From IMG/VR virus record IMGVR_UViG_3300025120_000103, positions 1-46,813 of that record: DNA of 46,813 nt; one strand, written 5' to 3'. The DNA is from a virus. Every line of letters begins with the position of its first letter. Within the stretch, counting starts at the first letter, position 1. Under the pieces are notes generated by a model. It saw only the letters and a program-made list of their open reading frames with translations. It searched no databases and had not been told where the DNA came from. The position numbers were made by a program, and so were the translations under genes. Of the stretch, positions 17,153 to 39,841 are shown in pieces.

Positions 17153-19525
17153 ATGGCATATCAAGGTATTAATACAGGAACCTCCCCTAATGATGGTTTA
17201 GGGGATACTCTTCTAGATGGTGGTGTTAAGATTAACAGCAACTTCTCTGAATTGTACAATATTATAGGTGATGGCACCAGCACATTCGTTGGTGTTGTTA
17301 CTCAAATCTCTGCAGGAACAAATGTAAGCATCTCAACTGCTTATGGTTCTGTTGAGGTATCTGCACCTACACCAACCAATCTACGAACTGATAACCTTAG
17401 GGTTACTGGAATTACCACCCTTGGTGCTACCAATGGCATTGGTACAGTAACAATGGGTATTGGTGTCACTGCCCTCTATGTTGATGGTAGTGCCAGAGTC
17501 ACGGGAGTCCTTACTGTTGGCACTGGTTCTATCACACTTGAGAGTGACAGGGTACACGTAGGTTCTGGTATTACAATTGATGCTAACAACAACACTATGG
17601 TGTTGGGTGATAACATTACAATGACTGCATCCTCAGGTGCTGTTGATGTTGCTTTAATGACAGCAGGTTCTGCTACTGTTACTGGTCATTCTACAGCAAC
17701 AACTCTTGCTAGTTCTGGTACTGCCACATTTGCTGGTGATGTAAGTCTTGGTTCATCTATTACATTATCTGACACTAAGGAGATCTTACTTGGAGATAGT
17801 GCAGAATTTTCACTTTCACATGGTGATTCTACTGGAAACCTGATTGAGTCAAAATCAGGTGCCTTTAATTTGAAGGGCAACACCCTCAATATTATTGCTG
17901 GTACAGCAAATACAGTTGTTGCTGCAACAAACCCAGATGGTAATTATGGTATTGAGTTCTACTATCTCAATGACAAGAAATTAGAAACTAGGTCATCAGG
18001 TGTAAGAGCACTTGGTGGTTTCCAGGTTATATCTGGTATTACAACACTAGGTGTTGTGACTGCTACTACCTATTATGGAGATGGTAGTAATTTAGCAGGT
18101 GTTGGCAACACTTTTGATGTATCTACAGATACATTAGTTGTTTCTGGTATTACAACATTAGGTGTTGTGACTGGTGCTACTTATTTTGGTGATGGTTCAA
18201 ACCTGTCTGGAATTGCAGGTATCAGTACTACAAAAATCAATACTACTGAACTCAACAATAGTGGAATTACAACCCTTACAGGTCTTGTAGAAGTTGGTTC
18301 TGGTGTCACTATAAGTGGCATTGCAACATTCAACCAAGGTTTCCAAGTTGGTGGAACTCTTAATGTAAATGAAAGTCCTACTGCACTTTTCTTTGATGCT
18401 AATGCTTCTGACAAATTCCAATTAAAGAATGCACTTGGCACAGTTGACCTTCAAGGTACTGGTCAAGTTAGAGCTTTGAAAGCCAACTCTTCTGAACTTT
18501 TATTCCGTGGCATTGCTGATGGATCATTTGAAGCATATTGGGATGGAAATAGAAAGTTTGCAACTTGCAGTATTGGAGCAACAGTTACTGGTCAATTATC
18601 AGCAGGAAACTTTATTGGTGATGGTTCAGGACTAACAGGTGTTGTTGGTTCTGGTTCTGGTATTATTGTTAATGATAGTGATACACCTATTGGAACTGCA
18701 GGAACAATTAATTTTGGTACTGGTCTTAGTGTATCACCAGCATCTGCAGGTGTAGTTACTGTTACTTCTAGTGGTGGTGCTGGTGGTGGTCAACCAGAAA
18801 TAACATGGACTCTTGGTAACAATGGTAGCAGTGATTATACATTTACTGGCAGTGGATTCTCTGGTGCTACAAATGATCCAACTTTATATCTTGTAAGAGG
18901 TCAAACATATAAGTTTGATAATCAGAGTACTGGACATCCATTTAGAATTCAATCTACTACTGCAACACCAGGTGGTGGAACACAGTACAATACTGGGGTA
19001 ACAAATCAAGATGCTACTGGTGGTACAGCAACTAATGTATTGACATTTATTGTACCAATGGATGCTCCTGATACACTGTATTATCAGTGTACATCACATT
19101 CTACAATGTTTGGTGCTATCAATGTTATTGGTGGTCCAGTGCTGCCCTCAAGATCATCTGTCTCTGGTGCTACTGCTAGCATTGCAGATAATGTTATTGG
19201 CAACATTGATATCACTGGATTTAAATCATATAATCTATTGAAGGTTGGTCTGTCAACAGCAGGTTGGTTTAGACTATATACAGATGGCGCATCTAGAACT
19301 GCAGATGTTGGAAGGAGTGTTGGAATTGATCCAAACCCAGGAAGTGGAGTTATTGCTGAAGTTGTAACCACTGGCATTTCAACTACACAATTAGTTTCTC
19401 CCTTTGTTCCAGGTGGCAATATGGATGAACCTGCAACTACAACAATGTACGCATCAGTCAAAAACCTATCTGGTGTAACACAGTCTATATCAGTAAACTT
19501 AACACTTCTCCAACTCGAGGAATAA
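17153..19525 (+). CDS. Tail fibre-like protein with cupredoxin-like domain
   Basis: A 790-residue virion protein. The N-terminus (GINTGTSPNDGLGDTLLDGG, then NSNFSELY) is the anchor type seen on many phage tail fibre proteins. Residues ~60-500 are beta-repeat fibre sequence, with two near-identical 26-residue units containing SGITTLGVVT and Y-x-GDGSNL (292-317 and 329-354). Residues ~581-655 resemble a plastocyanin-type domain: TYKFDNQSTGHPF with H595, then LYYQCTSHSTMFG with C646, H649 and M652, the usual four type-1 copper ligands. The last ~130 residues form a small domain that could be the distal tip. The role is probably host recognition or baseplate attachment; the receptor is unknown. 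It is preceded by a late promoter and an AAAAGGA ribosome-binding site. Confidence 0.75.
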   Translation: MAYQGINTGTSPNDGLGDTLLDGGVKINSNFSELYNIIGDGTSTFVGVVTQISAGTNVSISTAYGSVEVSAPTPTNLRTDNLRVTGITTLGATNGIGTVTMGIGVTALYVDGSARVTGVLTVGTGSITLESDRVHVGSGITIDANNNTMVLGDNITMTASSGAVDVALMTAGSATVTGHSTATTLASSGTATFAGDVSLGSSITLSDTKEILLGDSAEFSLSHGDSTGNLIESKSGAFNLKGNTLNIIAGTANTVVAATNPDGNYGIEFYYLNDKKLETRSSGVRALGGFQVISGITTLGVVTATTYYGDGSNLAGVGNTFDVSTDTLVVSGITTLGVVTGATYFGDGSNLSGIAGISTTKINTTELNNSGITTLTGLVEVGSGVTISGIATFNQGFQVGGTLNVNESPTALFFDANASDKFQLKNALGTVDLQGTGQVRALKANSSELLFRGIADGSFEAYWDGNRKFATCSIGATVTGQLSAGNFIGDGSGLTGVVGSGSGIIVNDSDTPIGTAGTINFGTGLSVSPASAGVVTVTSSGGAGGGQPEITWTLGNNGSSDYTFTGSGFSGATNDPTLYLVRGQTYKFDNQSTGHPFRIQSTTATPGGGTQYNTGVTNQDATGGTATNVLTFIVPMDAPDTLYYQCTSHSTMFGAINVIGGPVLPSRSSVSGATASIADNVIGNIDITGFKSYNLLKVGLSTAGWFRLYTDGASRTADVGRSVGIDPNPGSGVIAEVVTTGISTTQLVSPFVPGGNMDEPATTTMYASVKNLSGVTQSISVNLTLLQLEE
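18026..18103 (+). repeat. Fibre repeat unit, copy 1 (26 codons)
   Basis: Encodes V-I-SGITTLGVVT ... YYGDGSNLAGV. It matches the unit at 18137-18214 at 21 of 26 residues, offset by exactly 37 codons. Similar units recur in the 906 aa protein. Confidence 0.75.
18137..18214 (+). repeat. Fibre repeat unit, copy 2 (26 codons)
   Basis: Encodes V-V-SGITTLGVVT ... YFGDGSNLSGI, the second copy of the unit at 18026-18103. Confidence 0.75.
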
Positions 19526-22866: not shown

Positions 22867-25800
22867 ATGCCACAGGAAACTAACCTTAATGTTGCTCCTT
22901 ATTTTGACGACTTTGATTCGCAACAAAATTATTACAAAGTCCTTTATAAGCCAGGTTTCCCTGTTCAGGCAAGAGAACTTACAGGGATGCAGTCTATTCT
23001 GCAGAATCAGGTTGAGGAGATGGGAAACCACTTCTTTAAAGAGGGTGCAAAGGTTATCCCTGGTGACCTGACATATGTTCAGAACTTTTATTGTATTCAA
23101 ATTCAGTCTGAGTTCTTAGGAGTACCTGTTGGAATCTATCTTGACCAAATTGTTGGTGCTACCATCACTGGTCAAACTTCTGGCGTCACAGCAAAGGTAG
23201 TAAAGGTTCTTTCAAATGATGATTCTGAGAGAGGAGTATATACACTCTATATCAACTATGAGAACACTGGTTCATCATCAGAAGAAATTAGTGAATTCTT
23301 AAGTAATGAGATTCTGATAAGCAATAAAAATATTACATATGCTACAACCTTCATCTCTGCTGGTGAGGGTTTCTGTACCACTATTACTCAGAATGCATCT
23401 GCAGTTGGTTCAGCAATGTTTATTGCTGATGGTGTGTATTTCCTTAGAGGATACATGGTCAATGTGCCTGCACAAACTCTAATTCTTGATCAGTACAACA
23501 ATACCCCATCATATAGAATTGGTCTGGATGTTGTAGAAGAGATTGTATCTTCAGATATTGATCAGTCACTTAATGATAATGCTCAAGGTTTCAATAACTT
23601 TACTGCTCCTGGTGCTGATAGACTCAGAATTACTGCTACTCTATCAAAGAAGGGACTGAATTCTTTCAATGAGAGTAATTTTGTCCAACTGTCAACTATT
23701 GAGAATGGTAATCTTAGAACTATTATTACAGGTACTGAATATAACTTCCTTGGTGATGAATTAGCTTCTAGAACTTTTGATGAGTCAGGACATTATTATA
23801 TCAAAGAATATGTAGCAACTGTTAAAGAAAGTTTAAACAACAATCAAGGAAATAGAGGTTTATTTCTGAAGAATCAAGTTACCACTCAAGGTAACGTACC
23901 AGCACCAGATCTTGGTGTTTATAAAGTATCACCAGGAAAAGCATATGTTAAAGGTTATGAAGTAGAGAATATTTCCCCATCACTTATTGATTTCCAAAAA
24001 CCAAGAACCACAAAGGTCCTTAAAGATCAGGGAATTAACTTTGGTTTTGGACCAACTCTTGCTGTCAATAGAGTATTTGGTTCTCCAACTATTGGAATTA
24101 ATACATCAAACTCTGTGTCCCTAAGAGATACAAGAATGTCTGCTACTCAGGATCAGGCAAGTGGAGAAGAGATTGGTGTTGCTAGAATTTATGATTTTGC
24201 ACTTGAAGGTGGTTCATATGATGCTCTTGTCCCTGACTTAAACAAGTGGGACTTGTCATTGTATGATGTCCAAACATTTACTAATATTACTGTTAATGAA
24301 CCAGTAACACTTTCAAATTCAGTTTATATTAAAGGTGAGTCCAGTGGTGCAACTGGTTTCCTAAGATCAAATGTAAGTGCAGGAACTGCTATTACTGCTT
24401 ACCAAGTTAATGGAGACTTCTTCAAAGGTGAGAGACTGCTGTTCAATGGTCTGGTTGATGATGCCAGATATGTAACAAATTCTATTAATTATTCTCTGAG
24501 TGATGTAAGATCCATCTATTCAAAAGTTGGTGTTACAACATTTACTGCTGATACTGTTCAGGTTGGTGGTTTTAATTTTGGAAATGCATCAGTAACTGGT
24601 CAAAATGCTTCCAATCAATCATTCATTACAGTATCTGCTGATCCCAATTTCTCCTTTGTTGGTCTGGTAACTACTAATAATCTTATTCAGTATTCTAGAC
24701 CTGACTTTGACATTGTTTCATATGCAAAGGTAGTTGGTGTATCAAGAACAAACTTCACTATTGAGGCAGTAACATCTACTGCTAATGTCAATAGTGGTGC
24801 TCTTCCCACATCAACTGAGCAAGTTGGTAGTGTACAAATCATTGGTGCATCTGGCGTTGGTAATGCTGGATCAGGTAACATCACTGACAATGAGTCAATT
24901 TATAGTGCATTTCCTAAAAAGAATATTAACTCTGTAAATCTTCTTGGTTCAAACCTTGTTATCAGAAGACAGTATAGTGTAAGTATTACTAATGGTGCTA
25001 CAACACCCATTGACTGTGAAGCAAAAGAAATTTTCCTGGCATTTGATGAAGAAAGATATACTCTGATTAGATCTGATGGTAGCACAGAAGTGCTCACACC
25101 TGATAAATTTGTTTATCTGAATGGATCTACTACACTGCAGATTAGAGGACTTGGTTCCAATGCAGTCAACTGCAAATTAATCACCACTATTCGTAAATCT
25201 GAGATTAAGTCAAAAGTAAAACTGAAGGCAACTGCAAAGAGTATTGTTGTTGATAAGTCAAATTCAGTTGGTTCTGGTATTGGCACTACAACTTTAAATG
25301 ATGGTTTGGTCTATGGTGACTACCCCTTTGGAACTAGAGTACAGGATGAGATTATCTCACTGAATACTCCTGATGTTGTTACTATTTTGGGTGTATATGA
25401 ATCACAAAATACAGATAATGCTGACTCACCACATATGACCACATCCCAGATGGATGGTATTACTAATACAACTAATGACTTAATTATTGGTGAGATTGTC
25501 ATTGGTAGTCAAAGTGGTGCAAAAGCAATGTTTGTTGGTAAGAAGACTGATACCAGTATCTTCTTTGTTTACCTGAATAAGACTACATTCAAAAATACAG
25601 AAGTTGTAAACTTTGAAAGTTCTAGTGTTAATGCAATTGCTGGTGCTGTAAGTCTTGGTTCAAAGAATATCACAAAAGATTTTAGATTTAATAATGGTCA
25701 GAAAGGTGGTTTCTATGACTATGCAAGAATTGTTAGAAAGGGTACAGCAGGAAAACCTGCTAGAAAACTGAAGATCTTCTTCACCTCAGCATACTATGAG

Positions 25801-28800
25801 AATTCTGATCAGGGTGATATCACCACTGCTAATTCATATACCAACTTTAATTATACAACTGAGATTGGAAGTGTTAATGGTAGGAGAAATACAGACATTA
25901 TTGATGCAAGACCTAGAGTAAATGATTATTCTGTTGCACAAGGTTCTAGATCGCCATTAGAATTCTATGGTAGAGATTTCCTTGATGCTAATGGTGGCAC
26001 AAGTCAGAGTTCCAAGCACATTATTGCTTCTGATGAGTCAATGACTCTTGGATATGATTATTTCTTACCTAGGGCAGACAGATTATATCTTACAAAAGAC
26101 AGTGGTATTCAATTAGTATCTGGAACACCAGATGATCAACCAAGACTTCCTGATGGAATCAATGGTGCTTTAAATATTGCCAACATCTTCCTTCCTGCAT
26201 ACCTTTACAAAACATCTGATGCAAAGATCAACTTTGTAGAGCACAAACGATTCCAGATGAGTGATATATCAAAACTGGAACAGAGAATCAAGAACCTTGA
26301 ATACTATACTTCATTAAGTGCTCTTGAAAACAATACTCTCAATTCCTTTGTAGAAGATGCTAATGGTTTGAACAGATTCAAGTCTGGTGTTTTTGTTGAC
26401 AACTTCTCATCTCTTGAACCACAAGACACATCTATTGGTGTAAGAAATGCTATTGATACTAGAAATGGTGTTCTAAGACCTTCTCACTACACTACATCTG
26501 TTAATCTTCAACTTGGTACAACTGCTGTCACTGGCATTGGTACTGTTTCTGATGCAAACCAAGATTCTGATTTTGCAGAGGTTGTTGGTATTAATGTCAG
26601 GAAGACTGGTAGAGTTCTAACTCTAAATTATCAAGATGAAGCTTGGTTGAAACAACCATATGCAACTAGAATTGAAAGTGTTACTCCTTTCTTGATCCAG
26701 TTCTGGCAGGGTGAAGTTGAAATGACACCTGATGTTGATGTCTGGATTGATGTCAATAGAGTTGAAGTTAATAATGTGATGATGGAAGGTTCCTTCCAAG
26801 GCATCTCTGAGGCACTTGGAGCAGAGGTATCTACCACAGAGGATGGTGTAAGACTTGGTGTAAGTCCTGTCATCTGGAACTCTTGGGAGACTGTTGGAGT
26901 CAATGTGGACATGTCAATGTCCAACCAGCAGCAGTTCATTCAAGGTGGTTCTGATGTCATCTCTAATGGTCTGCTTGATAACCTCTTCCAGGGTGCTGAG
27001 GTAGGCATCAATCAGATTGTTGATGCTAGTGATACAGTAGTCAATAACATCAATGCTACTGGTGGTGTCACACTTGATCAGCAGAGAACAGGTTCACAAT
27101 TCACTGTAAATGAAGTAATCAATACTGAGTCACTTGGTGACAGAATTGTAAGAAGAGACTTAATCCACTTCATGAGATCAAGAAACATCTCATTCAAAGG
27201 AACAAGACTCAAGCCATTCACAAGAGTTTATTCATTCTTTGATGATGTAGATGTAACTGCTTTCTCAGTACCAAAACTTATTGAGATTGAGATGGTTCAT
27301 GGAACCTTTGTTCCAGGAGAAAATTGTTCAGGTGTAGTTGATGATGGTGGTTCTGCAATTATCAGTTCTGCCTCAGTTCCGTCAATCAACTTTAGAATTG
27401 CAAATGCTAACCATAAGTATGGTCCATATAACAATCCAACAGATGTTTATGATAGCAATCCATACAACAGAAATAACACTATTGCATCTGTTTATTCAGA
27501 ATCATCATCTATATTAAACATTGATACATTTAGTTTAGCATCACAAGACTTCCCACAATATGATGGATTTATTGGAAATGGGATGGTGTTGACTGGAAGT
27601 ATTTCTGGGGCACAAGCAAAGATCAAATCTGTAAGACTTAAGTCTGATAGAGTTGGTACAGTTCTTGGATCATTTAAAGTGCCAGATGGTGGCAATCCTG
27701 CTAACCCTGTATTTGAGACTGGTAGATCTAGGTTTAGATTGACTAGCAGTCCAATCAACAACTTGACGTCAGGTGCCACAACAACTGCTGCAGAAGCAAC
27801 ATTCTACTCACAAGGTGATGTTGATACAACTCAACAAACAACATTATCTGTCAGAAATGCAACTGTAGAACAAACTGATATCAGTCAGGTTAGAGCACTT
27901 TCTGATGTTGCAATTTCTAATAATATTGCAGTTGAAAGTGGATTTGATGTTGTAACCAATATTGATCAGGATGTTACTAATATCACCAATGAGTTCATTA
28001 CAAATGAAATCACTGAGATTACTAATATCACTGAAGTAACAAATGTCACTAATGAGATTACTAATGTAACAAATGTCTTTAATACTACTAATGTTACACA
28101 GGTAGTTAGACCTCCTAGACCTCCTGCACCACCTGATCCTGACCCTCTTGCTCAGACATTCTTTGTTGATGATCAGAGTGGTATATTTGTCACTAAGGTT
28201 GACCTCTTCTTCCAAGCAAAAGATTCTAATATTCCTTTCCTGTTTGAAATTAGAGAAGTTAGTCTTGGCACACCAACAACCACTGCTCTACCTTTCTCCA
28301 AGGTTAGTGTAGATCCAGATCAAATTAGTCTGAGTGATGATGGAACAGTTGCAACAACTGTTACACTCCAATCTCCTGTTTATCTGAATGGTTTGACTGA
28401 GTATGCTTTGGTTCTTCTTTCACACTCTACTGAGTATAAGGTATGGACAAGTAGATTTGGTGAGGCAGATGTTAGATCTTCTTCAAGAGAATCAGGTCAA
28501 ATTCTTGTCACAGAACAACCACTGCTTGGTTCACTGTTTAAGTCACAGAATGCCTCAGTATGGACACCTTCACAGTATGAAGACCTTAAATTCAACATGT
28601 ATGTTGCTAGTTTTGCTTCTTCTGGTAATTGCACATTCTACAATCCAAACCTTCCTGAGGATGTTGCTAAGATTGAACCTACTGGCGTCACAATGCTGCC
28701 AAGGCAAGCAAGAATTGGTATTGGAACCACTGTAAATGATCCTGATATTCAACTAGGCAACAGAATCACACAGAGAAATAATGATGTAAGTGGTGTTCTG

Positions 28801-30621
28801 GTTGGTTATGCTGGTTCAGCAACTGCTCAAATGACTATCACTAATGCTGGTGTTGGTTATACTCCATCTGCTGCTGGTCAACACTTCTCATATGCTGGTG
28901 TTGCTCTTACATCTGTCACAGGATTTGGTCTTAATGCAACAGCAGACATTACAGTTGTAGATGGTGTTGCAATTGGTGCCACTATTAATGTTGGTGGAGT
29001 TGGATATGCACTTGGTGATGTTCTTACACCAATCAGTGTTGGTACTCTTGAACTTGGTTCAGGTATGCAACTGTCAGTATCTACTATTCTTGGTCAGAAT
29101 ACACTGATTGTAGATAATGTCCAAGGCAACTATCTACCAAGTTCTAGTAATAGAATGGAGTTCATCAATGGTGCTGGTATCACTACTGAACTCAACTATG
29201 ATGCTGGTGGTGATGTCATTGCACTGAACCCAATCAATGTCACAAGTCAAGGTGACTACATGAAGATCTTCCAGAGAAACCATGGTCTATACTCCAATGT
29301 AGATAGAGTACAAATCAAGGGTGTATCTAGTGATGTTATTCCTTCCACTCTTGCAACCCCATATGACTTTGATGCTACAACATTCCTTACTCTTGAAGGA
29401 ACAGGTGAGTATGCACAGTTTGAGGGTGTTGGTGTTGCTGGTACTAACCCAGGTTACATCAGAATTAATGAAGAAATCATTAGTTACACTGGTGTCAATG
29501 GTAGAACACTGACTGGCATTACAAGAGGTATTGATAACACTATTGTTGCATCTCACTCTAAGGGAGAGACTGCTGAGAAATATGAACTTAATGGTGTATC
29601 ATTGAGAAGAATTAATAGACCACATCTTCTTTCTAATGTTACTGCAAATGAGTTAAGTGAAGCACCAATTGGTGTTGATTACTACTATCTAAATGTAAGA
29701 ATGAATGCTCAGGGAGCAAACAGAGCACCTGGCAATGTTGCAGGATTTGCACCACTGTATTTCAATGAGAGAGCAGTTGGTGGTGGTCCAAATGCACAAG
29801 CAAATTACAACTTACCATTCTCACTTTGTAATCCCAAGATTACAAATGTCACTCCATTTGGAACAAATATTATTCCACAGGTCAGAACAATTTCTGCATC
29901 TAGTGTGTCTGGTAATCAAGAGTCTTACAATGATGAAGGATTCCAACAGGTCACTCTGTTTGATAAGAACTACTTTAGTTCTTTGAGACAAGTTGCCTCA
30001 CCACAAAATGAATCACAAATTCTTGCATCTCAGACATTCCCTGGCAATAAGTCCTTCTCTATGAATATGGACTTAACCACTCAAAATAGAAGACTAAGTC
30101 CTGTCATTGACCTTGATAGTTGCAGTGTTGTATTCACCTCCAATAGAATTAATGCTCCTATTACTGATTATGCCAATGATTTTAGAGTTAATGGTCTTGA
30201 GGATGACCCAAATAGATTTGTATATGTGTCTAAGAATGTAGTTCTTGAAAATCCTGCAACTTCACTGCAAGTTGTACTTGATGCATATGTATCAACCTAT
30301 GGTGATGTCAGAGTATTTTATGCTTTGAATCAAGACACTAAACCAAATGAGACAATCTTTATTCCTTTCCCAGGACACAGAAATATTGCTCCAAATGGTT
30401 CTATCATTGACCTCTCTTCTAACAATGGCACATCAGATGTGAAGGTTCCTAAGATTGACTCTTATCAACCTGAACCATCTGTTAACTTGTTTAAAGAGTA
30501 CAAGTTTACTATTGATGAACTTGTTCCATTCAAGTCATTTAGAATTAAGATTATTGGTACATCAACTGACCAATCAAATCCTGTTCTCCTTAGAAACCTT
30601 AGAGGTATTGCATTAGCCTAA
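22867..30621 (+). CDS. Giant DUF4815-type baseplate/fibre protein (2584 aa)
   Basis: The N-terminus (NVAPYFDDFDSQQNYYKVLY, then PGFPVQARELTGMQSILQNQ and FFKEGAKVIPG) is the DUF4815 signature of marine and other large-phage virion proteins. Four S-G-A/V-x-A repeats occur in the first half (e.g. ITGQTSGVTAKV near residue 100, ESSGATGF near 493, GSQSGAKAMF near 880). Residues ~1697-1747 are an unusual T-N-I/V-T-N-rich stretch, followed by a proline hinge (PPRPPAPPDPDP) and a DPLAQTFFVD domain. Two G-Y repeats follow near residues 1995-2065 and an EEIISY/ITRGIDNTI repeat near 2200. The protein is probably a large fibre or baseplate-periphery component. Its stop overlaps the next start (TAATG). 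Exact T4 counterpart unclear; gp10-like position is a guess. Confidence 0.75.
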   Translation: MPQETNLNVAPYFDDFDSQQNYYKVLYKPGFPVQARELTGMQSILQNQVEEMGNHFFKEGAKVIPGDLTYVQNFYCIQIQSEFLGVPVGIYLDQIVGATITGQTSGVTAKVVKVLSNDDSERGVYTLYINYENTGSSSEEISEFLSNEILISNKNITYATTFISAGEGFCTTITQNASAVGSAMFIADGVYFLRGYMVNVPAQTLILDQYNNTPSYRIGLDVVEEIVSSDIDQSLNDNAQGFNNFTAPGADRLRITATLSKKGLNSFNESNFVQLSTIENGNLRTIITGTEYNFLGDELASRTFDESGHYYIKEYVATVKESLNNNQGNRGLFLKNQVTTQGNVPAPDLGVYKVSPGKAYVKGYEVENISPSLIDFQKPRTTKVLKDQGINFGFGPTLAVNRVFGSPTIGINTSNSVSLRDTRMSATQDQASGEEIGVARIYDFALEGGSYDALVPDLNKWDLSLYDVQTFTNITVNEPVTLSNSVYIKGESSGATGFLRSNVSAGTAITAYQVNGDFFKGERLLFNGLVDDARYVTNSINYSLSDVRSIYSKVGVTTFTADTVQVGGFNFGNASVTGQNASNQSFITVSADPNFSFVGLVTTNNLIQYSRPDFDIVSYAKVVGVSRTNFTIEAVTSTANVNSGALPTSTEQVGSVQIIGASGVGNAGSGNITDNESIYSAFPKKNINSVNLLGSNLVIRRQYSVSITNGATTPIDCEAKEIFLAFDEERYTLIRSDGSTEVLTPDKFVYLNGSTTLQIRGLGSNAVNCKLITTIRKSEIKSKVKLKATAKSIVVDKSNSVGSGIGTTTLNDGLVYGDYPFGTRVQDEIISLNTPDVVTILGVYESQNTDNADSPHMTTSQMDGITNTTNDLIIGEIVIGSQSGAKAMFVGKKTDTSIFFVYLNKTTFKNTEVVNFESSSVNAIAGAVSLGSKNITKDFRFNNGQKGGFYDYARIVRKGTAGKPARKLKIFFTSAYYENSDQGDITTANSYTNFNYTTEIGSVNGRRNTDIIDARPRVNDYSVAQGSRSPLEFYGRDFLDANGGTSQSSKHIIASDESMTLGYDYFLPRADRLYLTKDSGIQLVSGTPDDQPRLPDGINGALNIANIFLPAYLYKTSDAKINFVEHKRFQMSDISKLEQRIKNLEYYTSLSALENNTLNSFVEDANGLNRFKSGVFVDNFSSLEPQDTSIGVRNAIDTRNGVLRPSHYTTSVNLQLGTTAVTGIGTVSDANQDSDFAEVVGINVRKTGRVLTLNYQDEAWLKQPYATRIESVTPFLIQFWQGEVEMTPDVDVWIDVNRVEVNNVMMEGSFQGISEALGAEVSTTEDGVRLGVSPVIWNSWETVGVNVDMSMSNQQQFIQGGSDVISNGLLDNLFQGAEVGINQIVDASDTVVNNINATGGVTLDQQRTGSQFTVNEVINTESLGDRIVRRDLIHFMRSRNISFKGTRLKPFTRVYSFFDDVDVTAFSVPKLIEIEMVHGTFVPGENCSGVVDDGGSAIISSASVPSINFRIANANHKYGPYNNPTDVYDSNPYNRNNTIASVYSESSSILNIDTFSLASQDFPQYDGFIGNGMVLTGSISGAQAKIKSVRLKSDRVGTVLGSFKVPDGGNPANPVFETGRSRFRLTSSPINNLTSGATTTAAEATFYSQGDVDTTQQTTLSVRNATVEQTDISQVRALSDVAISNNIAVESGFDVVTNIDQDVTNITNEFITNEITEITNITEVTNVTNEITNVTNVFNTTNVTQVVRPPRPPAPPDPDPLAQTFFVDDQSGIFVTKVDLFFQAKDSNIPFLFEIREVSLGTPTTTALPFSKVSVDPDQISLSDDGTVATTVTLQSPVYLNGLTEYALVLLSHSTEYKVWTSRFGEADVRSSSRESGQILVTEQPLLGSLFKSQNASVWTPSQYEDLKFNMYVASFASSGNCTFYNPNLPEDVAKIEPTGVTMLPRQARIGIGTTVNDPDIQLGNRITQRNNDVSGVLVGYAGSATAQMTITNAGVGYTPSAAGQHFSYAGVALTSVTGFGLNATADITVVDGVAIGATINVGGVGYALGDVLTPISVGTLELGSGMQLSVSTILGQNTLIVDNVQGNYLPSSSNRMEFINGAGITTELNYDAGGDVIALNPINVTSQGDYMKIFQRNHGLYSNVDRVQIKGVSSDVIPSTLATPYDFDATTFLTLEGTGEYAQFEGVGVAGTNPGYIRINEEIISYTGVNGRTLTGITRGIDNTIVASHSKGETAEKYELNGVSLRRINRPHLLSNVTANELSEAPIGVDYYYLNVRMNAQGANRAPGNVAGFAPLYFNERAVGGGPNAQANYNLPFSLCNPKITNVTPFGTNIIPQVRTISASSVSGNQESYNDEGFQQVTLFDKNYFSSLRQVASPQNESQILASQTFPGNKSFSMNMDLTTQNRRLSPVIDLDSCSVVFTSNRINAPITDYANDFRVNGLEDDPNRFVYVSKNVVLENPATSLQVVLDAYVSTYGDVRVFYALNQDTKPNETIFIPFPGHRNIAPNGSIIDLSSNNGTSDVKVPKIDSYQPEPSVNLFKEYKFTIDELVPFKSFRIKIIGTSTDQSNPVLLRNLRGIALA

Positions 30622-31737: not shown

Positions 31738-33210
31738 ATGCTGAATCCATTTTTCCTTAACGGTTCACAATCAGAACAAAGTTTAGTACAATCTCTTGTC
31801 AATGAACAACTGAGAATGTATGGTATTGAGGTGTACTATCTTCCTAGAAGATACCTCAAAACTAATAGCGTAATTAGAGAAGTAATCCAGTCTGAATTTA
31901 AAGATGCTTATCCAATTGAAGCATATTTGGATAACTATGAGGGATTTACTGGACAAGGATCTATACTGTCAAAATTTGGTATTGAGAATAGAGATGACTT
32001 ACAACTAATCATCTCAAAAGAAAGATTTGAAGATTATATCAGTCCATTACTTGCAAATATCCCTAATAGTAAATTAAGCACTAGACCCAAGGAAGGAGAC
32101 CTTATCTATTTCCCATTGGGTGATAGATTATTTGAGATTAAGTTTGTAGAACATGAGCAACCTTTCTATCAACTAAAGAAGACCTATGTCTATGAGTTAA
32201 GATGCGAACTCTTCAGATATGAGGATGAAGTTCTTGATACTAATGTTGAGGACATTGATGATGAGATTGCACAGATTGGTTATATGCAGACTTTGAGTCT
32301 GATTGGTGCTGGCACAACAGCAACAGCAGAAGCAACTGTATGTGCTAATGGTGCTGTCAGTCAGATTTATATTGGTAATATGGGTAGGAACTACTCATCT
32401 ACTCCTACTGTTGGTTTCTCATCTGCTCCTACTGGAGGAGTTACTGCTGAAGGTGTAGCAGCAGTATCTTATGAATATCCTGGATGTAAAGGTCAATCTG
32501 GAGTTGTCACTTCAATCTATATTACCAATGCTGGATGTGGTTATATCACACCTCCTTGGATTACATTATCAGGTGGAGGTGGTTCAGGATTTGCTGCTAC
32601 AACAGGCATCAGCACTGATGGTTCTATTATGCACATCACTGTCACTGATGGTGGTTCAGGTTATGTGATGGCACCTGCTGTATCTATTGGTCAATCTGCT
32701 GGTGTCTTCCCCACATTTGACAATACAACATACTCATTTGATACTAATCAATATACTTGGGATAGTGAGTATCCATCAGCAAGTAGAGATGCTGTGGCAA
32801 TCTCCACAATCAGCACTTCTGGTATTGTCACTGATGTATATGTCATTGATGGTGGTGAAGGATATGGAGCTGCACCTAAGGTATTCATTACACCTCCTAT
32901 GTCATTCTCAGAAGCAAATATTGGAGAAGGCACATTTAAATTTAATGAGATTGTGACTGGACAAACATCTAACACCACTGCAAGAGTTAAAGAGTGGAAT
33001 GCTGTTATAAATATTATGGAAGTGTCTATTGTTGATGGATATTTTGTAAGAGGTGAGGTACTTGTTGGTTCAGAATCAGGTGCAAGATATGTTATTGGAA
33101 GTACAGTGACAGATGATTTAGTCACTCCTTATGCACAAAATGATGTTATTGAGTCTGAGGCAGACAAGATTGTTGATTTCTCATCAGCAAACCCCTTTGG
33201 TATGCCCTAA
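31738..33210 (+). CDS. gp14: Neck protein gp14, with repeat insertion
   Basis: The first ~180 residues match the gp14 neck family (T4 gp14 is 256 aa): EQLRMYGIEVYYLPRRYLK near residue 29, EAYLDNYEGF near 61, STRPKEGDLIYFPL near 117, and FEIKFVEHEQPFYQL near 137. gp14 binds gp13 at the head-tail joint. The protein is 490 aa because residues ~184-440 carry four G-x-G-Y/GxNY beta repeats (~217, 264, 304, 378) and two S-G-A-type repeats (~405 and ~445), the same families found in gp7 and the DUF4815 protein. The C-terminal ~40 residues (DIVDFSSANPFGMP) resemble the usual gp14 end. The insertion may form surface domains on the neck. Confidence 0.9.
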   Translation: MLNPFFLNGSQSEQSLVQSLVNEQLRMYGIEVYYLPRRYLKTNSVIREVIQSEFKDAYPIEAYLDNYEGFTGQGSILSKFGIENRDDLQLIISKERFEDYISPLLANIPNSKLSTRPKEGDLIYFPLGDRLFEIKFVEHEQPFYQLKKTYVYELRCELFRYEDEVLDTNVEDIDDEIAQIGYMQTLSLIGAGTTATAEATVCANGAVSQIYIGNMGRNYSSTPTVGFSSAPTGGVTAEGVAAVSYEYPGCKGQSGVVTSIYITNAGCGYITPPWITLSGGGGSGFAATTGISTDGSIMHITVTDGGSGYVMAPAVSIGQSAGVFPTFDNTTYSFDTNQYTWDSEYPSASRDAVAISTISTSGIVTDVYVIDGGEGYGAAPKVFITPPMSFSEANIGEGTFKFNEIVTGQTSNTTARVKEWNAVINIMEVSIVDGYFVRGEVLVGSESGARYVIGSTVTDDLVTPYAQNDVIESEADKIVDFSSANPFGMP

Positions 33211-34678: not shown

Positions 34679-35011
34679 ATGGCTGTACCAGCAATCAATA
34701 TCTCAATAGATAAAAGCACTTCTTTTTCACAAGATTTTATTGTGAAGAATAGTGACCAAACATCTATGAATTTAACTGGATATACTGCTACTTCAAAGAT
34801 TAGGAAGTATCCAGAAGACTCAACTTCTAATAATTTTACCTGTGGCATAACATCATCCACTGGTACTATAAAAGTTTCAATGGGTGCTTCTACTACTGCA
34901 TTGCTAGCAAGTGGTAGAAACTATTATGATATTATAATTACATCAGGAGTAGGAACTGTCACAAAAGTGTATGAAGGCACTGCAATGGTAACTGCTACTG
35001 TATCTGCATAA
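34679..35011 (+). CDS. Small beta-rich virion-type protein, 110 aa
   Basis: A 110-residue protein, all-beta in appearance, with an Ig-like or upper-baseplate-domain pattern. It starts AVPAINISIDKSTSFSQDF, has LTGYTATSKIRKYP near residues 32-45 and YYDIIITSGVGTVTKVYEGT near 82-101. This type is common in T4-like marine phages between the terminase genes. I know of no proven function; a virion decoration or fibre-adaptor role is an inference from the fold pattern. It ends in a TAATG overlap with the 906 aa fibre-like gene, so the two are probably made together. Confidence 0.7.
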   Translation: MAVPAINISIDKSTSFSQDFIVKNSDQTSMNLTGYTATSKIRKYPEDSTSNNFTCGITSSTGTIKVSMGASTTALLASGRNYYDIIITSGVGTVTKVYEGTAMVTATVSA

Positions 35012-37731
35012 TGGATAATCTTGGAGATTTCTTTTCTTCTATAGGAGAAGAGAAAAAGAAGAAGAAAGAAAAGACCAAGGAATTAATTGGGGATGTATCC
35101 CTAGACGACCTTTTTAGCAATCTCAAAGAAGAAAAAAGTAAACTTCAAAAAAAAGTTGCAAAAAAAGCAAAAGAAAAAGAAGAATTATTAAAACAAGCAC
35201 AGATATTTGAATCATTTTTATTTAATGAGACACCAAAGGTAAAAAAAGATACTCAAAAAGAAGTAAAAATTCTTGAGAAAGGTCTTTTAAACTTAAAAAA
35301 TACATCTTATAAGTCTATCGATAGACTTATGAAAAGTATTTCTAAAAAATATGATATTACCCCACTTGAATTGCACAATCAATTCAAAGAAAAGCATGGG
35401 TCAATTCCTGACGATTGGATAAAACACCAAAAAGAAGAAGTAGATACTAGTGATTGGAGAGATGAATATGTACCAAATGATGTAGAATCTGTAGATATTA
35501 TTACACCAGAACCATTAGAAGCATCAGAAGGTATTGGTAGTAAATTAGTATCTAAAGAAGAAACTACTATTGACAAGTCTCTTCAAATTCTAGATCAACT
35601 TGTCACTGAAGAAGAAAAAATAAATGAATCTGAAACTGAAATTGCTCGTCTCAAACGTGAGATGGACCAACTTCGTAAGATGGTCAATGAATCCACTAGG
35701 ATTGCTAGCTCTCAAGGTGGTGGGGGAGAAGTTCGCTTAGAATTTTTAGATGATGTTGACAGAGATTCTGCAAAGGTAGATGGTCAAGCTCTTGTATGGG
35801 ATTCTAGTGCTAGCACTCTTGGAAAATTTGTTGGTTCTGATTATATTGCATTTTCTGGATATGCTCACACTGCTGGCATATCAACAATATCACAAGGATT
35901 GATTGGAACACCAGATATTGACGTTGACGTTATAACTGCAAACTCAGCAATTTTTTCTGGGAATGTTTCTGTTGCTGGCACTCTTACCTATGAAGATGTC
36001 ACTAACATTGATTCAATTGGATTAATTACAGCTAGAAGTGGAATCAAAGTTGGAAGTGGTATCACATTTGAACCAAATGGCCAAGCAACTTTTGCAGGAA
36101 TAATTACTGCATCACAATTCTCAGGTTATAATCATCTAGTTGCTCCATATGGTCCTACAACAACCATCAATGTTCAAGTAGCGACAAAGACATCTGCCCA
36201 CAGATACTTTGGTACTGGAAGTGGTCAGGGGTATGTTTTAGATGGTATAGAATCTCCATTTCTTACACTTACACCAGGAAGAACATATCGTTTTTCTGGA
36301 TCAGTTGGTGGTAGTCATCCATTCAGATTTTATCTTGATGCTGCAAAATCAACCCAATACAATACAGGTGTTACTGTAGGATCTGGTTATGTTGAACTAG
36401 AAGTAACAGACACTACACCAACAGTTTTACATTATCAGTGTGCTGCTCATGGTTACATGGGCAATTCTGTACAGGTTAATTCAAGTAATTCAATTTTACT
36501 GAATAGTCAGAATGCATCCCATTACTTAGATTATAATAATTTTACCAATACACCAACAATACCAACTAACAATAACCAACTTACAAATGGTGCTGGTTAC
36601 ATTACCAGTGCAGATGGTGGTAATGCTGATCAATTAGATGGCCAAGAGGGAACATACTACCTAAACTACAACAATTTTACAAATAAACCCACAATACCAA
36701 CCAACAATAATGAGTTGACTAATGGTGCTGGATTTATTACCACATCATTTACTAACACCAATCAATTAACAAATGGTGCTGGATTTATCACTGGAGTATC
36801 CACATTCTCTGGAAATTATAATAATCTGACAAATAAACCCACAATACCAACCAACAATAATGAGTTGACTAATGGTGCTGGATTTATTACAAATAATGTA
36901 AGTGGAACTCTTACTGCAACAGCATTTAGTGGTGATGGTTCTGGTCTTACAAATGTAGGTATGGACACATCAAATGTGTCTGCTAATACTTTAGTTGTGT
37001 CAGGTGTATCGACACTTGGTGTTGTAACTGGTGCTACTTACTATGGTGATGGTTCAAATTTAATTGGTGTTGCTAATACGGCAAACGTTACATCAAATAC
37101 TTTGGTTGTAGTAGGTGTTGCAACCTTCTTTGGTAATGTTACAATTGGTGGCACTCTAACTTATGAGGATGTAACTGATATTGATTCTGTTGGTATCATA
37201 ACAGCAAATAATGGTGTCAATATTGCTGGTGGTGGGCTTCAGGTTGTTGGTATTACCACAATTAATAGTGACTTGAGAGGTAGTGGTACTGTTAATATTT
37301 TAGGTATTAATTCTGTTACTGCCACATCGTTCCATGGAGATGGTTCTGGTTTAACAAACGTAGGTATGGACACATCAAATGTGTCTGCTAATACTTTAGT
37401 TGTGTCTGGAGTATCAACAGTAGGTGTTGTTACCGGAGCAACATCTATTCAGGCAACAACATACTATGGTGATGGAAGTAATCTCACTGGTATTAATGCC
37501 GGTGCAGGTGGTACTGCAAATGTATCCTCAAGAACAATCCAATCGGGCATCATTACTGCAGTAGACCAATTTTACCCTCCAGCACTTACCTCAGTAGAAA
37601 GAGATGGGTTATCCTTTAATGTTGGAGCATTTATTTTCAATGAGACAGAAAACAAACTCCAGATGTATCTTGGGGGGCGATGGAGAAATCTTGCCTTTGA
37701 ACTTGATTCATATACTTTAGTTGGATTGTGA
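35011..37731 (+). CDS. Fibre-like protein with coiled coil and cupredoxin-like domain
   Basis: A 906-residue virion-type protein. Residues 1-70 are highly charged (EEKKKKKEKTKELIG) and residues ~195-230 form a heptad coiled coil (ARLKREMDQLRKMVNESTR). A fibre region follows from ~245. Residues ~420-490 form a plastocyanin-like domain: YRFSGSVGGSHPFRF with H436, then LHYQCAAHGYMGN with C477, H480 and M483. Residues ~505-635 are Asn/Thr-rich repeats (PTIPTNNNELTNGAGFIT), including two exact 62-bp DNA repeats. Further on are GDGSNL/GDGSGL units shared with the 790 aa protein. The C-terminal ~50 residues (LQMYLGGRWRNLAFELD) look like a fibre tip domain. It is likely a trimeric fibre, although it lies between the terminase genes. 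Confidence 0.75.
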   Translation: MDNLGDFFSSIGEEKKKKKEKTKELIGDVSLDDLFSNLKEEKSKLQKKVAKKAKEKEELLKQAQIFESFLFNETPKVKKDTQKEVKILEKGLLNLKNTSYKSIDRLMKSISKKYDITPLELHNQFKEKHGSIPDDWIKHQKEEVDTSDWRDEYVPNDVESVDIITPEPLEASEGIGSKLVSKEETTIDKSLQILDQLVTEEEKINESETEIARLKREMDQLRKMVNESTRIASSQGGGGEVRLEFLDDVDRDSAKVDGQALVWDSSASTLGKFVGSDYIAFSGYAHTAGISTISQGLIGTPDIDVDVITANSAIFSGNVSVAGTLTYEDVTNIDSIGLITARSGIKVGSGITFEPNGQATFAGIITASQFSGYNHLVAPYGPTTTINVQVATKTSAHRYFGTGSGQGYVLDGIESPFLTLTPGRTYRFSGSVGGSHPFRFYLDAAKSTQYNTGVTVGSGYVELEVTDTTPTVLHYQCAAHGYMGNSVQVNSSNSILLNSQNASHYLDYNNFTNTPTIPTNNNQLTNGAGYITSADGGNADQLDGQEGTYYLNYNNFTNKPTIPTNNNELTNGAGFITTSFTNTNQLTNGAGFITGVSTFSGNYNNLTNKPTIPTNNNELTNGAGFITNNVSGTLTATAFSGDGSGLTNVGMDTSNVSANTLVVSGVSTLGVVTGATYYGDGSNLIGVANTANVTSNTLVVVGVATFFGNVTIGGTLTYEDVTDIDSVGIITANNGVNIAGGGLQVVGITTINSDLRGSGTVNILGINSVTATSFHGDGSGLTNVGMDTSNVSANTLVVSGVSTVGVVTGATSIQATTYYGDGSNLTGINAGAGGTANVSSRTIQSGIITAVDQFYPPALTSVERDGLSFNVGAFIFNETENKLQMYLGGRWRNLAFELDSYTLVGL
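36679..36740 (+). repeat. Exact 62-bp direct repeat, copy 1
   Basis: Identical to 36829-36890, exactly 150 bp (50 codons) apart and in frame. It encodes the TNKPTIPTNNNELTNGAGFI repeat of the 906 aa protein. A diverged third copy lies near 36540-36608. Confidence 0.9.
36829..36890 (+). repeat. Exact 62-bp direct repeat, copy 2
   Basis: Second copy of the repeat at 36679-36740. Confidence 0.9.
36955..37001 (+). repeat. Exact 47-bp direct repeat, copy 1
   Basis: Identical to 37360-37406, 405 bp (135 codons) apart, in frame. It encodes VGMDTSNVSANTLVVS. The flanking GDGSGLTN codons also match with few changes. Confidence 0.9.
37360..37406 (+). repeat. Exact 47-bp direct repeat, copy 2
   Basis: Second copy of the repeat at 36955-37001. 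Confidence 0.9.
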
Positions 37732-37762: not shown

Positions 37763-39841
37763 ATGCAGGAAGGTAATCTTCATAAGTGGTTCAAAGGATC
37801 CAAGTCAAAAGACGGTAAGTCTGGTTGGGTCAATGTAGTCACTGGCGGAACTTGTGCTAGTGATAAACCAGGTGAAGGGACACCCAAGTGTGTATCTTCT
37901 TCAAAAAGGGCTAGTATGACCCCCGAGGAAAGAAAGTCTGCCCAAAGTAGAAAGAAGAAAGCAGACCCAAACCAGCAATCAAAGTCTGGTGCTGCAAAAC
38001 CGACTTATGTTTCCACAGATCCTAACAAGAAAATGAAAGAATCTACCGACAATCTATCAGAAAGAGTTGGTGGTGCTGGAACTCTTGTCAGACAAGGTGT
38101 AAAATTTGCCGGCAAGAAAGGTGGTCGTGCAGTTCAAAAAGGAACCACTGCCACAACAGCTAAAGGAAAACAGATGGCTACTTCTGCAAAACAGGGTAAC
38201 CAAAGTAAACTAGTTGGTGATGGAAAGAGTGAGAAGAGAGGAGCAGCAATTGGTGGAACTCTTGGTGCCATTGGTGGAGCATTGATTCCTGATGGTCCTG
38301 CAATGGTTGCCGGTGAGATTGGTGGTGGTATTATTGGTTCCAAGATTGGTGGTATCGTTGGTAGACAGTTTGATAAAAGATCACAAGCCAAGGCACAGAA
38401 TGAAGAAACCGATAAGAAAGGTTCAGGTTCTGGTAAGAAAGATGCATGTTACAAAAAAGTAAAAGCATCTGCTTCTGTATGGCCTTCGGCATATGCTTCT
38501 GGTCGTTTAGTTCAGTGTCGCAAGAAAGGTGCTGCCAACTACGGCAAATCTAAAAAAAATGAAGAGTATATGGCTCTTCCTGAGATGTCTGATATTCAGA
38601 TTAATGCCATGAGAAGAGCTGGTATTGAAGTTGAGGTTATTAATGAATTTTTAGGAACTGCAATTGCGGGAACAGTTGGTGCCGCAAAGGCCAAAGAAGG
38701 AAGTAGAGTAAAGAAAGCAGTTGGATCTGGTGCAGGATATGCAATTGGAGCAAAAACTGGCGAAACTGTTGGAAAACATGCAGGAGGAGCAATCGGTTCT
38801 GCAGTTGGAAGTGCAGCAGTACCTGTTGTTGGTGGTGCAGTTGGAAAAGTAGCTGGTAAGGCAATTGGAAAAGTGGTAGGTGGTATTGCTGGTGGTGGAG
38901 TTGGTGCGAAAGTTGGTAATAAGGTAGTGGGTGAAGAAGTTATTGATGAGAAGTGTTGGGACGGATATACTCAAAAGGGTATGAAGAAGAAGGGTAAGAA
39001 AGTAGTTCCTAATTGTGTTCCGGTTGGCGAAGAACTTGGTGGTGGAGTTGGGGGTGGTCTTACTGGGGCGGCATTGAACGTTGGTCTAAAAGGTGCAAAT
39101 CTTCTTAGTAAAGGTATTCAGAGTATCATTAAAAACCCAATTAAGACTGGTACTGGTGCTGCAGCACGACAGTTTGCAGGTACTTCCGGTAGCGATACCA
39201 ATAGAAGTAAAATTAATGTTAAGGAAGAAACTATTGAAGAGGCGACTAGAGTTCCTGCACAGAATGGTAATGTTTATTTGGTAGGGTTTACTTGGAGAGG
39301 TAAATACGTAATGATGAAACTTTTCTTCCCTGATGTTAAGAGACCATCTAGAAAAGAAGTACAGTCAGTACTTGAGAAGATTTATCCTGGTTGTTATCTT
39401 CAAAGATTTGATCTTGCACCGTATAACCCTGGCGAACCAATGCTGAATGTTGGTGTTAATGAAGAATCTAGTAAGAGTTGTTCTAAAGGTGAGTACTATT
39501 GCAATGACTCTAAAAAATGTAAGCCAGTACCTAAAGGTCATCATGTAATGCGAAATGGCGATTTAATGAAAGATGAAGATCATGATGAAGGTGGTGATAT
39601 GAGTGAAGGAGCCGCATGGCAGAGAAAAGAAGGTAAAAATAAGACTGGTGGTCTGAATGAAAAAGGTAGAAAGTCCTATGAAAGAGAGAATCCTGGCTCT
39701 GATCTTAAAGCACCTCAACCTGAAGGGGGCCCTAGGAAAAGATCTTTCTGTGCTAGAATGGGAGGAGTCAAAGGACCAATGAAAAAACCAAATGGAGAAC
39801 CTACCCGTAAGGCTCTTGCTCTTAGAAAGTGGAAATGTTGA
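37763..39841 (+). CDS. Basic modular Cys-paired protein with glycine zippers (692 aa)
   Basis: A strongly basic protein built of small modules, each bounded by cysteines. Module A (~1-50) has HKWFKGSKSKDGKSGW and a C-x13-C pair. B (~226-266) has DACYKKVKASASVWPSAYAS then C-R-K-K. C (~397-415) has CWDGYTQKGMKKKGKK then C. D (~573-600) has CSKGEYYCNDSKKCKPV. E (~660-692) has SFCARMGGVKG and ends RKWKC. Between them lie two glycine-zipper blocks (~162-200 and ~296-391, G-x-x-x-G patterns), which often insert into membranes. A small domain lies at ~495-560 (VGFTWRGKYVMMKLFFPDVK). Such modules recur in T4-like marine phages. It may be an internal, ejected or DNA-binding protein; function unproven. 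It has its own late promoter and lies just before gp17. Confidence 0.75.
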   Translation: MQEGNLHKWFKGSKSKDGKSGWVNVVTGGTCASDKPGEGTPKCVSSSKRASMTPEERKSAQSRKKKADPNQQSKSGAAKPTYVSTDPNKKMKESTDNLSERVGGAGTLVRQGVKFAGKKGGRAVQKGTTATTAKGKQMATSAKQGNQSKLVGDGKSEKRGAAIGGTLGAIGGALIPDGPAMVAGEIGGGIIGSKIGGIVGRQFDKRSQAKAQNEETDKKGSGSGKKDACYKKVKASASVWPSAYASGRLVQCRKKGAANYGKSKKNEEYMALPEMSDIQINAMRRAGIEVEVINEFLGTAIAGTVGAAKAKEGSRVKKAVGSGAGYAIGAKTGETVGKHAGGAIGSAVGSAAVPVVGGAVGKVAGKAIGKVVGGIAGGGVGAKVGNKVVGEEVIDEKCWDGYTQKGMKKKGKKVVPNCVPVGEELGGGVGGGLTGAALNVGLKGANLLSKGIQSIIKNPIKTGTGAAARQFAGTSGSDTNRSKINVKEETIEEATRVPAQNGNVYLVGFTWRGKYVMMKLFFPDVKRPSRKEVQSVLEKIYPGCYLQRFDLAPYNPGEPMLNVGVNEESSKSCSKGEYYCNDSKKCKPVPKGHHVMRNGDLMKDEDHDEGGDMSEGAAWQRKEGKNKTGGLNEKGRKSYERENPGSDLKAPQPEGGPRKRSFCARMGGVKGPMKKPNGEPTRKALALRKWKC

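Follow-up and report, generated by a model that had tools for sequence, protein, structure and literature searches.

Electron-transfer cupredoxins dock their partners around the ligand loop, the loop spacing C-x2-H-x2-M is that of amicyanin, and an Asn after the first ligand His is a non-universal second-shell feature. Plastocyanin, pseudoazurin and other type-1 copper proteins have sites of two His, one Cys and one Met (PMC8610252). For phages, the nearest published idea is the discussion of metal-binding tail fibres and of a Trojan Horse route for iron (PMC11705849). Those fibres (T4 gp37 and that of alterophage R22Y) also have a metal site in a phage fibre and bind iron via paired HxH motifs, whereas the domain analyzed here has a cupredoxin fold with His, Cys, His and Met. 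The cryo-electron microscopy study of P-SCSP1u (PMC10575957) is neutral on such a domain because it resolves the fibre N-termini only. Here we describe two cupredoxin-like domains encoded by the IMG/VR virus record IMGVR_UViG_3300025120_000103, which was analyzed over its whole length of 46,813 nucleotides (46.8 kb, hereafter the window; all coordinates refer to it unless a locus is named): one in a 906 amino acid (aa) tail-fibre protein and one in a 790 aa gp9-like baseplate/fibre connector (Table 1). As its sequence indicates, the source phage is a T4-like cyanophage, with a large terminase 90.6% identical to its counterpart in Synechococcus phage S-B43.

The first-pass annotation of this DNA had placed a second cupredoxin-like domain at 36271-36474, with H436, C477, H480 and M483 of the 906 aa protein as putative ligands, and had held that all four are kept in the diverged 790 aa copy. 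The residues stand in the sequence at these positions, the interval lies inside the modelled domain, and H595, C646, H649 and M652 match them in the 790 aa copy, the two copies being 28–33% identical. When the window was searched with a domain hidden Markov model (HMM) derived from homologues, exactly two copies came out, with E-values of 1.9e-32 (906 aa) and 2.7e-36 (790 aa) that are both optimistic because the two copies belong to the lineage on which the HMM was trained. The bare C..H..M motif occurs four times across the six frames of the window, twice in stop-broken frames, and is therefore insignificant by itself; the observation stands above chance because the whole domain is matched by the HMM. 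In a tree, which rests on only 100 columns and has 22 of its 75 inner branches drawn open, the two copies fall into separate groups, each shared with other phages; given these separate groups and the low identity, we rejected the idea that either copy had recently been duplicated into the other gene.

Both copies are predicted cupredoxin domains. AlphaFold modelled the 906 aa copy with a predicted local distance difference test score (pLDDT) of 92.5 and a predicted template modelling score of 0.85 (65-row alignment; strands at model residues 3-109), and the 790 aa copy with a pLDDT of 88.3 (42-row alignment). When the 906 aa model was searched with Foldseek, rusticyanin came out on top, with pseudoazurins, plastocyanins and an amicyanin mutant ranked lower, the aspartic peptidase SO1698 ninth amid copper proteins (E 2.3e-3), and two immune-type proteins further down; the 790 aa model retrieved a three-domain Cu nitrite reductase at the top and rusticyanin lower. 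Superposition on 2dv6 by VIA-align gave a moderate top Z of 9.0 for the 906 aa copy (root-mean-square deviation 3.5 Å, 95 aligned residues, 16% identity) and a Z of 11.5 for the 790 aa copy (2.3 Å, 98 residues, 22% identity). Because a Z of 9.0 is near the level that possibly means a mere common arrangement, the 906 aa model alone is no proof of kinship. In a sequence-profile search of the PDB, 59 of the 60 matches listed (E up to 1) were cupredoxins, Cu nitrite reductases or multicopper oxidases, the best being a Cu nitrite reductase (E 8.2e-7) and the sole non-copper match the designed beta protein 6e5c; this search superseded an uninformative single-sequence search with the 906 aa domain, which had returned antibody domains (E ≥0.03) and one fluorescent protein. 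The C-x2-H-x2-M loop aligned ungapped in the two best profile matches, and plastocyanin has two extra residues before the Met. Both copies are thus modelled as the seven- to eight-strand Greek-key beta-sandwich that matches solved cupredoxins, and sequence, conservation and alignment place the ligands in the type-1 order His, Cys, His, Met, one on an inner strand and three in the C-terminal loop. Among 68 alignment members, Pfam matches were to PF25489 (16), collagen (11), PF00127 (9), CBM_4_9 (7) and PF13473 (1), the collagen matches probably stemming from flanking residues. A fold search of viral structures with the 906 aa model retrieved, as a separate observation, beta-sandwich proteins of Pithovirus LCPAC302/LCPAC304 and Marseillevirus LCMAC201/202 (E 3.5e-9 to 1.7e-6).

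The retention of the four residues had been taken as a sign of selection on metal binding rather than chance, and the proposed check was to compare how well the ligands and the remainder of the domain are conserved in homologues. We ran this comparison on two fairer samples, each consisting of the best ~80 matches: one fetched by patterns without His, Cys and His (one pattern includes the Met), the other via the N-terminal half of the domain only. The remaining loci are less fair, since one set was fetched by a pattern containing C-x2-H and two further sets partly so. In the first sample, reduced to <80% identity (mean pairwise 44%), 37 of 39 domains keep all four ligands and 2 keep none, and the ligand columns are 95% conserved against 55% for the median column. 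The N-half sample retains all four ligands in 79/80 domains, or 26/26 after redundancy removal, where the ligand columns reach 100% and the median column 78%. Over all domains together (296 matches, reduced to the 289 having at least 75% of the columns), 279 have the complete set. Ligands that vary freely over a conserved core were not found in this comparison, and the four ligands are kept as a unit, which supports selection on the site rather than chance, with metal binding as its presumed function.

The ten exceptions among the 289 are three with Asn for the second His (all from one contig), FAMM (2), DATL (2), DSTI (1), HCHQ (1) and one domain truncated where its locus ends. The HCHQ case is a Puniceicoccaceae protein; a Puniceicoccaceae single-cell genome (L172:135-1577) encodes a TSP3-repeat protein whose divergent copy of the domain has Gln in place of the axial Met. 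In an 89-row non-redundant set, the same three divergent rows lost the first His, the Cys and the second His together, for which the probability under independent loss is ~1 in 113,564 squared if the rows are taken as independent, which is only roughly true. These rows lie on long, different branches of the tree at unsure positions, and the losses may be separate events. All three still match the domain HMM; the fold therefore survives without the site, and a joint loss of ligands with the fold kept is the opposite of free variation over a conserved core. Copies of the domain without His, Cys and His (L027:4061-4459, L044:4457-4894 and L020:2965-3363) offer natural controls for the contribution of the metal, and the degenerate copy of L027 comes after an intact one within one protein. 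Alignment A1, composed of 66 of 91 locus references and two window rows, leaves out near-duplicates and the most divergent rows; it excludes the ligand-less L027 and L044/L045 copies and keeps the ligand-poor L020.

Compared with described cupredoxins, the tail domain shares its fold and ligand spacing with amicyanin (TIGR02657) and with the C-x2-H-x2-M domains of Cu nitrite reductases (6hbe and 9cck, both matching the loop ungapped), and the amicyanin-type loop is present in both window copies. It differs from them in being embedded in phage tail proteins and in having Pro or Gln after the first His. The amicyanin model is matched by 13 of the 68 alignment members (best 1.7e-4) and by neither window protein. 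The likeness to the phage plastocyanin PetE lies in the cupredoxin profile, in which all four ligands pair with those of the tail domain (P 1.9e-4, probability 47%). PetE, however, is small, begins with a hydrophobic segment and has PPHN and C-x2-H-x4-M, whereas the tail domain has C-x2-H-x2-M and, in 81 of 85 intact non-redundant domains, H-P; Asn follows the first His in 5/5 phage PetE and in none of these 85 tail domains. PetE is encoded elsewhere in the same genomes as the tail domain, and 5 of 12 isolate records encode a plastocyanin above the Pfam cut-off. The 906 aa protein is not a plastocyanin, as it is a fibre protein with a different loop. An origin of the tail domain from cyanophage PetE is unsupported, since both coexist and their loops and contexts differ; a deep common origin is possible. 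The distinction is relevant for annotation: the 168 aa "PetE" of S-SCSM2R (SSCSM2R_202, PQ898602.1; L023:1782-2288) is a tail-type cupredoxin adjoining a gene with an S8-peptidase domain, the same genome has a true plastocyanin, likewise labelled PetE, at 1-324, and counts of petE as a phage metabolic gene may include tail-type cupredoxins.

The 906 aa protein contains no Cys other than C477 (four more in the counted frame precede its ATG), and a disulphide was therefore rejected for this protein. The ligand is also the sole Cys in S-SSM5 gp9 (408 aa) and in the Melnitz-3 fibre (517 aa), and 103 of 233 unique domain-bearing frames of at least 200 aa have no non-ligand Cys, in counts that run from stop to stop and may include residues upstream of the true start. 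Some carriers are not Cys-poor, as the S-TIM5 protein with its 17 Cys.

Its homologues show the domain to be a mobile module: cyanophages, pelagiphages and Methylophilales phages carry it in fibre, gp9 and other virion-type proteins. By tblastn, the 790-type copy occurs in 358 of 50,697 phage records, of which 351 are named Synechococcus (271), Cyanophage (55) or Prochlorococcus (25), the others being Marine (4), Pelagibacter (2) and uncultured (1). For comparison, the window terminase matches 2636 records, including 634 Escherichia and 238 Vibrio; neither name appears in the tally of the 790-type domain, for which tblastn is less sensitive as the domain is short. The 906-type copy was found in 35 records, including Methylophilales phages, Pelagibacter phages and podoviruses; its S-TIM5 homologue is annotated (by annotation only) as a virion structural protein. 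A profile search of the 12 isolate records found the domain in 11, S-SM2 being without it, and all four ligands are present in 12/12 domains examined (11 proteins, 10 isolates). The domain stands near the N end (P-GSP1, P-SCSP2), internally (P-TIM68, Mosig) or at the C end (S-SSM5 gp9, Baldr). In IMG/VR, at least 540 pattern matches encode a relative, among 600 listed. In Prochlorococcus phage P-TIM68 the gene order is small terminase, domain-bearing fibre gene, one gene and large terminase; at the corresponding place S-SM2 encodes a 554 aa tail-fibre-like protein without the domain. In S-B43 the domain is absent from the four genes tested of the 9 annotated between its two terminase genes, and a profile search of the whole record gave a single strong match elsewhere (86846-87190). 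By comparison with these three phages, the domain is a module gained and lost in a variable island.

Bacterial relatives came from a scan of genome contigs that yielded mostly collagen-repeat noise, with full matches at 4 of 79 loci (L106-L109) and a weak one at L172. A Bdellovibrionales metagenome-assembled genome encodes a stand-alone single-domain protein of 146 aa (L108:3878-4315), lipoprotein-like by eye, and two-domain frames of 431-437 aa occur in PS1, OCS116 and another alphaproteobacterium (L106, L107 and L109, near 3125-4440), the OCS116 one on a contig of 402,520 bases. Since bacterial relatives carry the domain, the module is common to phages and cells.

Site conservation, the predicted fold, the tail-fibre and connector PHROGs, the P-TIM68 synteny and the assembly-like gene upstream of the fibre gene support the reading that we favor with moderate confidence: a cupredoxin domain with a complete type-1 ligand set, set in a fibre and in a gp9-like connector, and serving mainly as a metal-locked structural or adhesive module. 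The ligand Cys would stay free, and each chain would bind one metal ion (most likely copper), acquired during assembly or once the particle is in the water. At the open end of the beta-sandwich, the metal would link the C-terminal loop with the His on the strand, making the domain mainly a stable part of the fibre and not an electron carrier with a fixed partner. Among intact domains, variability at the four positions between the loop ligands amounts to 2.2-3.0 bits (the zero entropy at the ligand columns of this set is an artefact of choosing intact domains and no measure of conservation), which speaks against one fixed redox partner. The varying position of the domain within proteins speaks against a role at the tip only, and both observations together favor the metal-locked module. 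The sequences further suggest that the virus particles of many aquatic phages carry metal, probably copper.

Several points weigh against this reading. We infer the structural role from position and loop variability only. The window proteins reach no curated copper family of Pfam or NCBIfam, the 790 aa protein matching PF00127 at E 0.083 only. Of 85 intact non-redundant domains, 81 have Pro and 4 have Gln next to the first His, on its C-terminal side, a second-shell change that could alter the metal site. Finally, a contig 94% identical over this stretch (represented by L002, L185 and L266) has Asn in place of H480.

Among the alternatives, it is possible but unlikely that the metal serves as copper bait, such that the loaded domain mimics a secreted cupredoxin and aids contact of the fibre with a copper-uptake protein of the host, as a copper analogue of the iron Trojan Horse. 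The domain is common in phages of picocyanobacteria and SAR11, metal-binding fibres and the Trojan Horse route have been discussed for iron (PMC11705849), an interaction of azurin with OprC has been reported (PMC8610252), and pyocins enter by a copper-regulated transporter (PMC10422930). However, the azurin study itself failed to see an azurin-OprC complex (PMC8610252), the azurin and pyocin footing is in Pseudomonas and not in the hosts of these phages, and the domain is not confined to a tip, being N-terminal, central or C-terminal in its various proteins.

We consider it rather improbable that something other than copper explains the retention of the four residues, either zinc or another metal or the packing and hydrogen bonds of an empty spacer with the cupredoxin fold. 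Copper is deduced from sequence and fold only, and the altered second shell and the close relative with the Asn variant of H480 fit such an explanation. Packing alone does not require these residues, however, as by HMM the fold persists in three divergent copies that lack His, Cys and His, and the buried, free Cys of fibres that otherwise have little Cys is in keeping with a thiolate ligand. Ranking below this in our estimate, and improbable as well, is a redox module whose copper would switch between Cu(I) and Cu(II), either to act as a redox trigger on the cell surface or to shield the particle from oxidants in sunlit water. Redox cupredoxins have this same ligand set, both by the PDB profile search and by description (PMC8610252), and many hosts are photosynthetic; yet the variable loop leaves no conserved docking face around the ligands, Pro/Gln replaces the Asn of phage plastocyanins, and the phages of non-photosynthetic hosts (Pelagibacter, Methylophilales) have the same site. 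A chance motif or artefact, for which one could point to the bare motif in the stop-broken frames, is hardly credible and was already refuted by the whole-domain HMM matches, the two confident models and hundreds of homologous stretches.

In the literature searched, which left out most subscription papers and all bioRxiv preprints, we found no description of cupredoxin or blue-copper domains in phage virions. Within this literature, the fold and the ligand set are known, and the virion setting, the breadth and the changed second shell are new. If the site of the favored metal-locked module holds copper, a virion of this kind would contain several to dozens of firmly held copper ions, given one ion for each fibre or connector chain and the chain numbers of T4-like phages, and infection of the main marine phototrophs, for which copper is scarce and toxic, would be tied to this metal. 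A wider proposal, doubtful at present, is that aquatic picoplankton has many tailed phages whose particles carry copper: the blue-copper domains of their fibres and connectors would fill with the metal and use it at the cell surface as receptor bait or as a redox trigger of infection. The isolate proteins with a single Cys, S-SSM5 gp9 and the Melnitz-3 fibre, make the copper idea directly testable.

Table 1 Coordinates of the two domain-bearing genes, their cupredoxin domains and ligands, and the gene upstream of the fibre gene in the window.
Feature	Position	Strand	Evidence
906 aa tail-fibre protein carrying a cupredoxin domain	35011..37731	+	Open reading frame (ORF); PHROG 30742 tail fiber protein, E 1e-120
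Predicted cupredoxin domain of the 906 aa protein	~36157..36477	+	AlphaFold, PDB profile search, Foldseek, VIA-align
Putative ligand H436 codon	36316..36318	+	SHPF motif at 36313-36324; column conservation
Putative ligand loop C477-x2-H480-x2-M483 (CAAHGYM) of the 906 aa protein	36439..36459	+	Sequence; column conservation
790 aa gp9-like baseplate/fibre connector with the other copy	17153..19525	+	PF07880 T4_gp9_10_N, E 2e-9; PHROG 677, E 1.1e-46
Predicted cupredoxin domain of the 790 aa protein	18800..19129	+	Domain HMM; AlphaFold; VIA-align
Putative ligand H595 of the 790 aa copy	18935-18937	+	GHPF starting at residue 594
Putative ligand loop C646-x2-H649-x2-M652 (CTSHSTM, from residue 646) of the 790 aa copy	19088-19108	+	
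110 aa protein similar to a tail-fibre assembly protein, encoded immediately upstream of the fibre gene	34679..35011	+	Context, outside the domain

In both proteins the domain lies inside the PHROG match (30742 for the 906 aa and 677 for the 790 aa protein), and these two entries as listed mention no copper or cupredoxin domain. The gene order around the fibre gene is small terminase, 110 aa gene, 906 aa fibre gene, 692 aa gene and large terminase. The 110 aa protein matches phrog_1084 (E 7.1e-25; unknown function) and phrog_3304 (L-shaped tail fiber protein assembly; E 3.4e-19). An Rfam search of the window gave zero matches, and two very long ORFs at 4873-17115 (4080 aa) and 22867-30621 (2584 aa) have no copy of the domain by HMM. 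The 692 aa protein (37763-39841), encoded between the fibre gene and the large terminase gene, has several function-less PHROG matches and a conserved Cys-containing C-terminus, and the 490 aa neck protein (head closure Hc2; 31738-33210) has an extra region matching baseplate and virion structural PHROGs.

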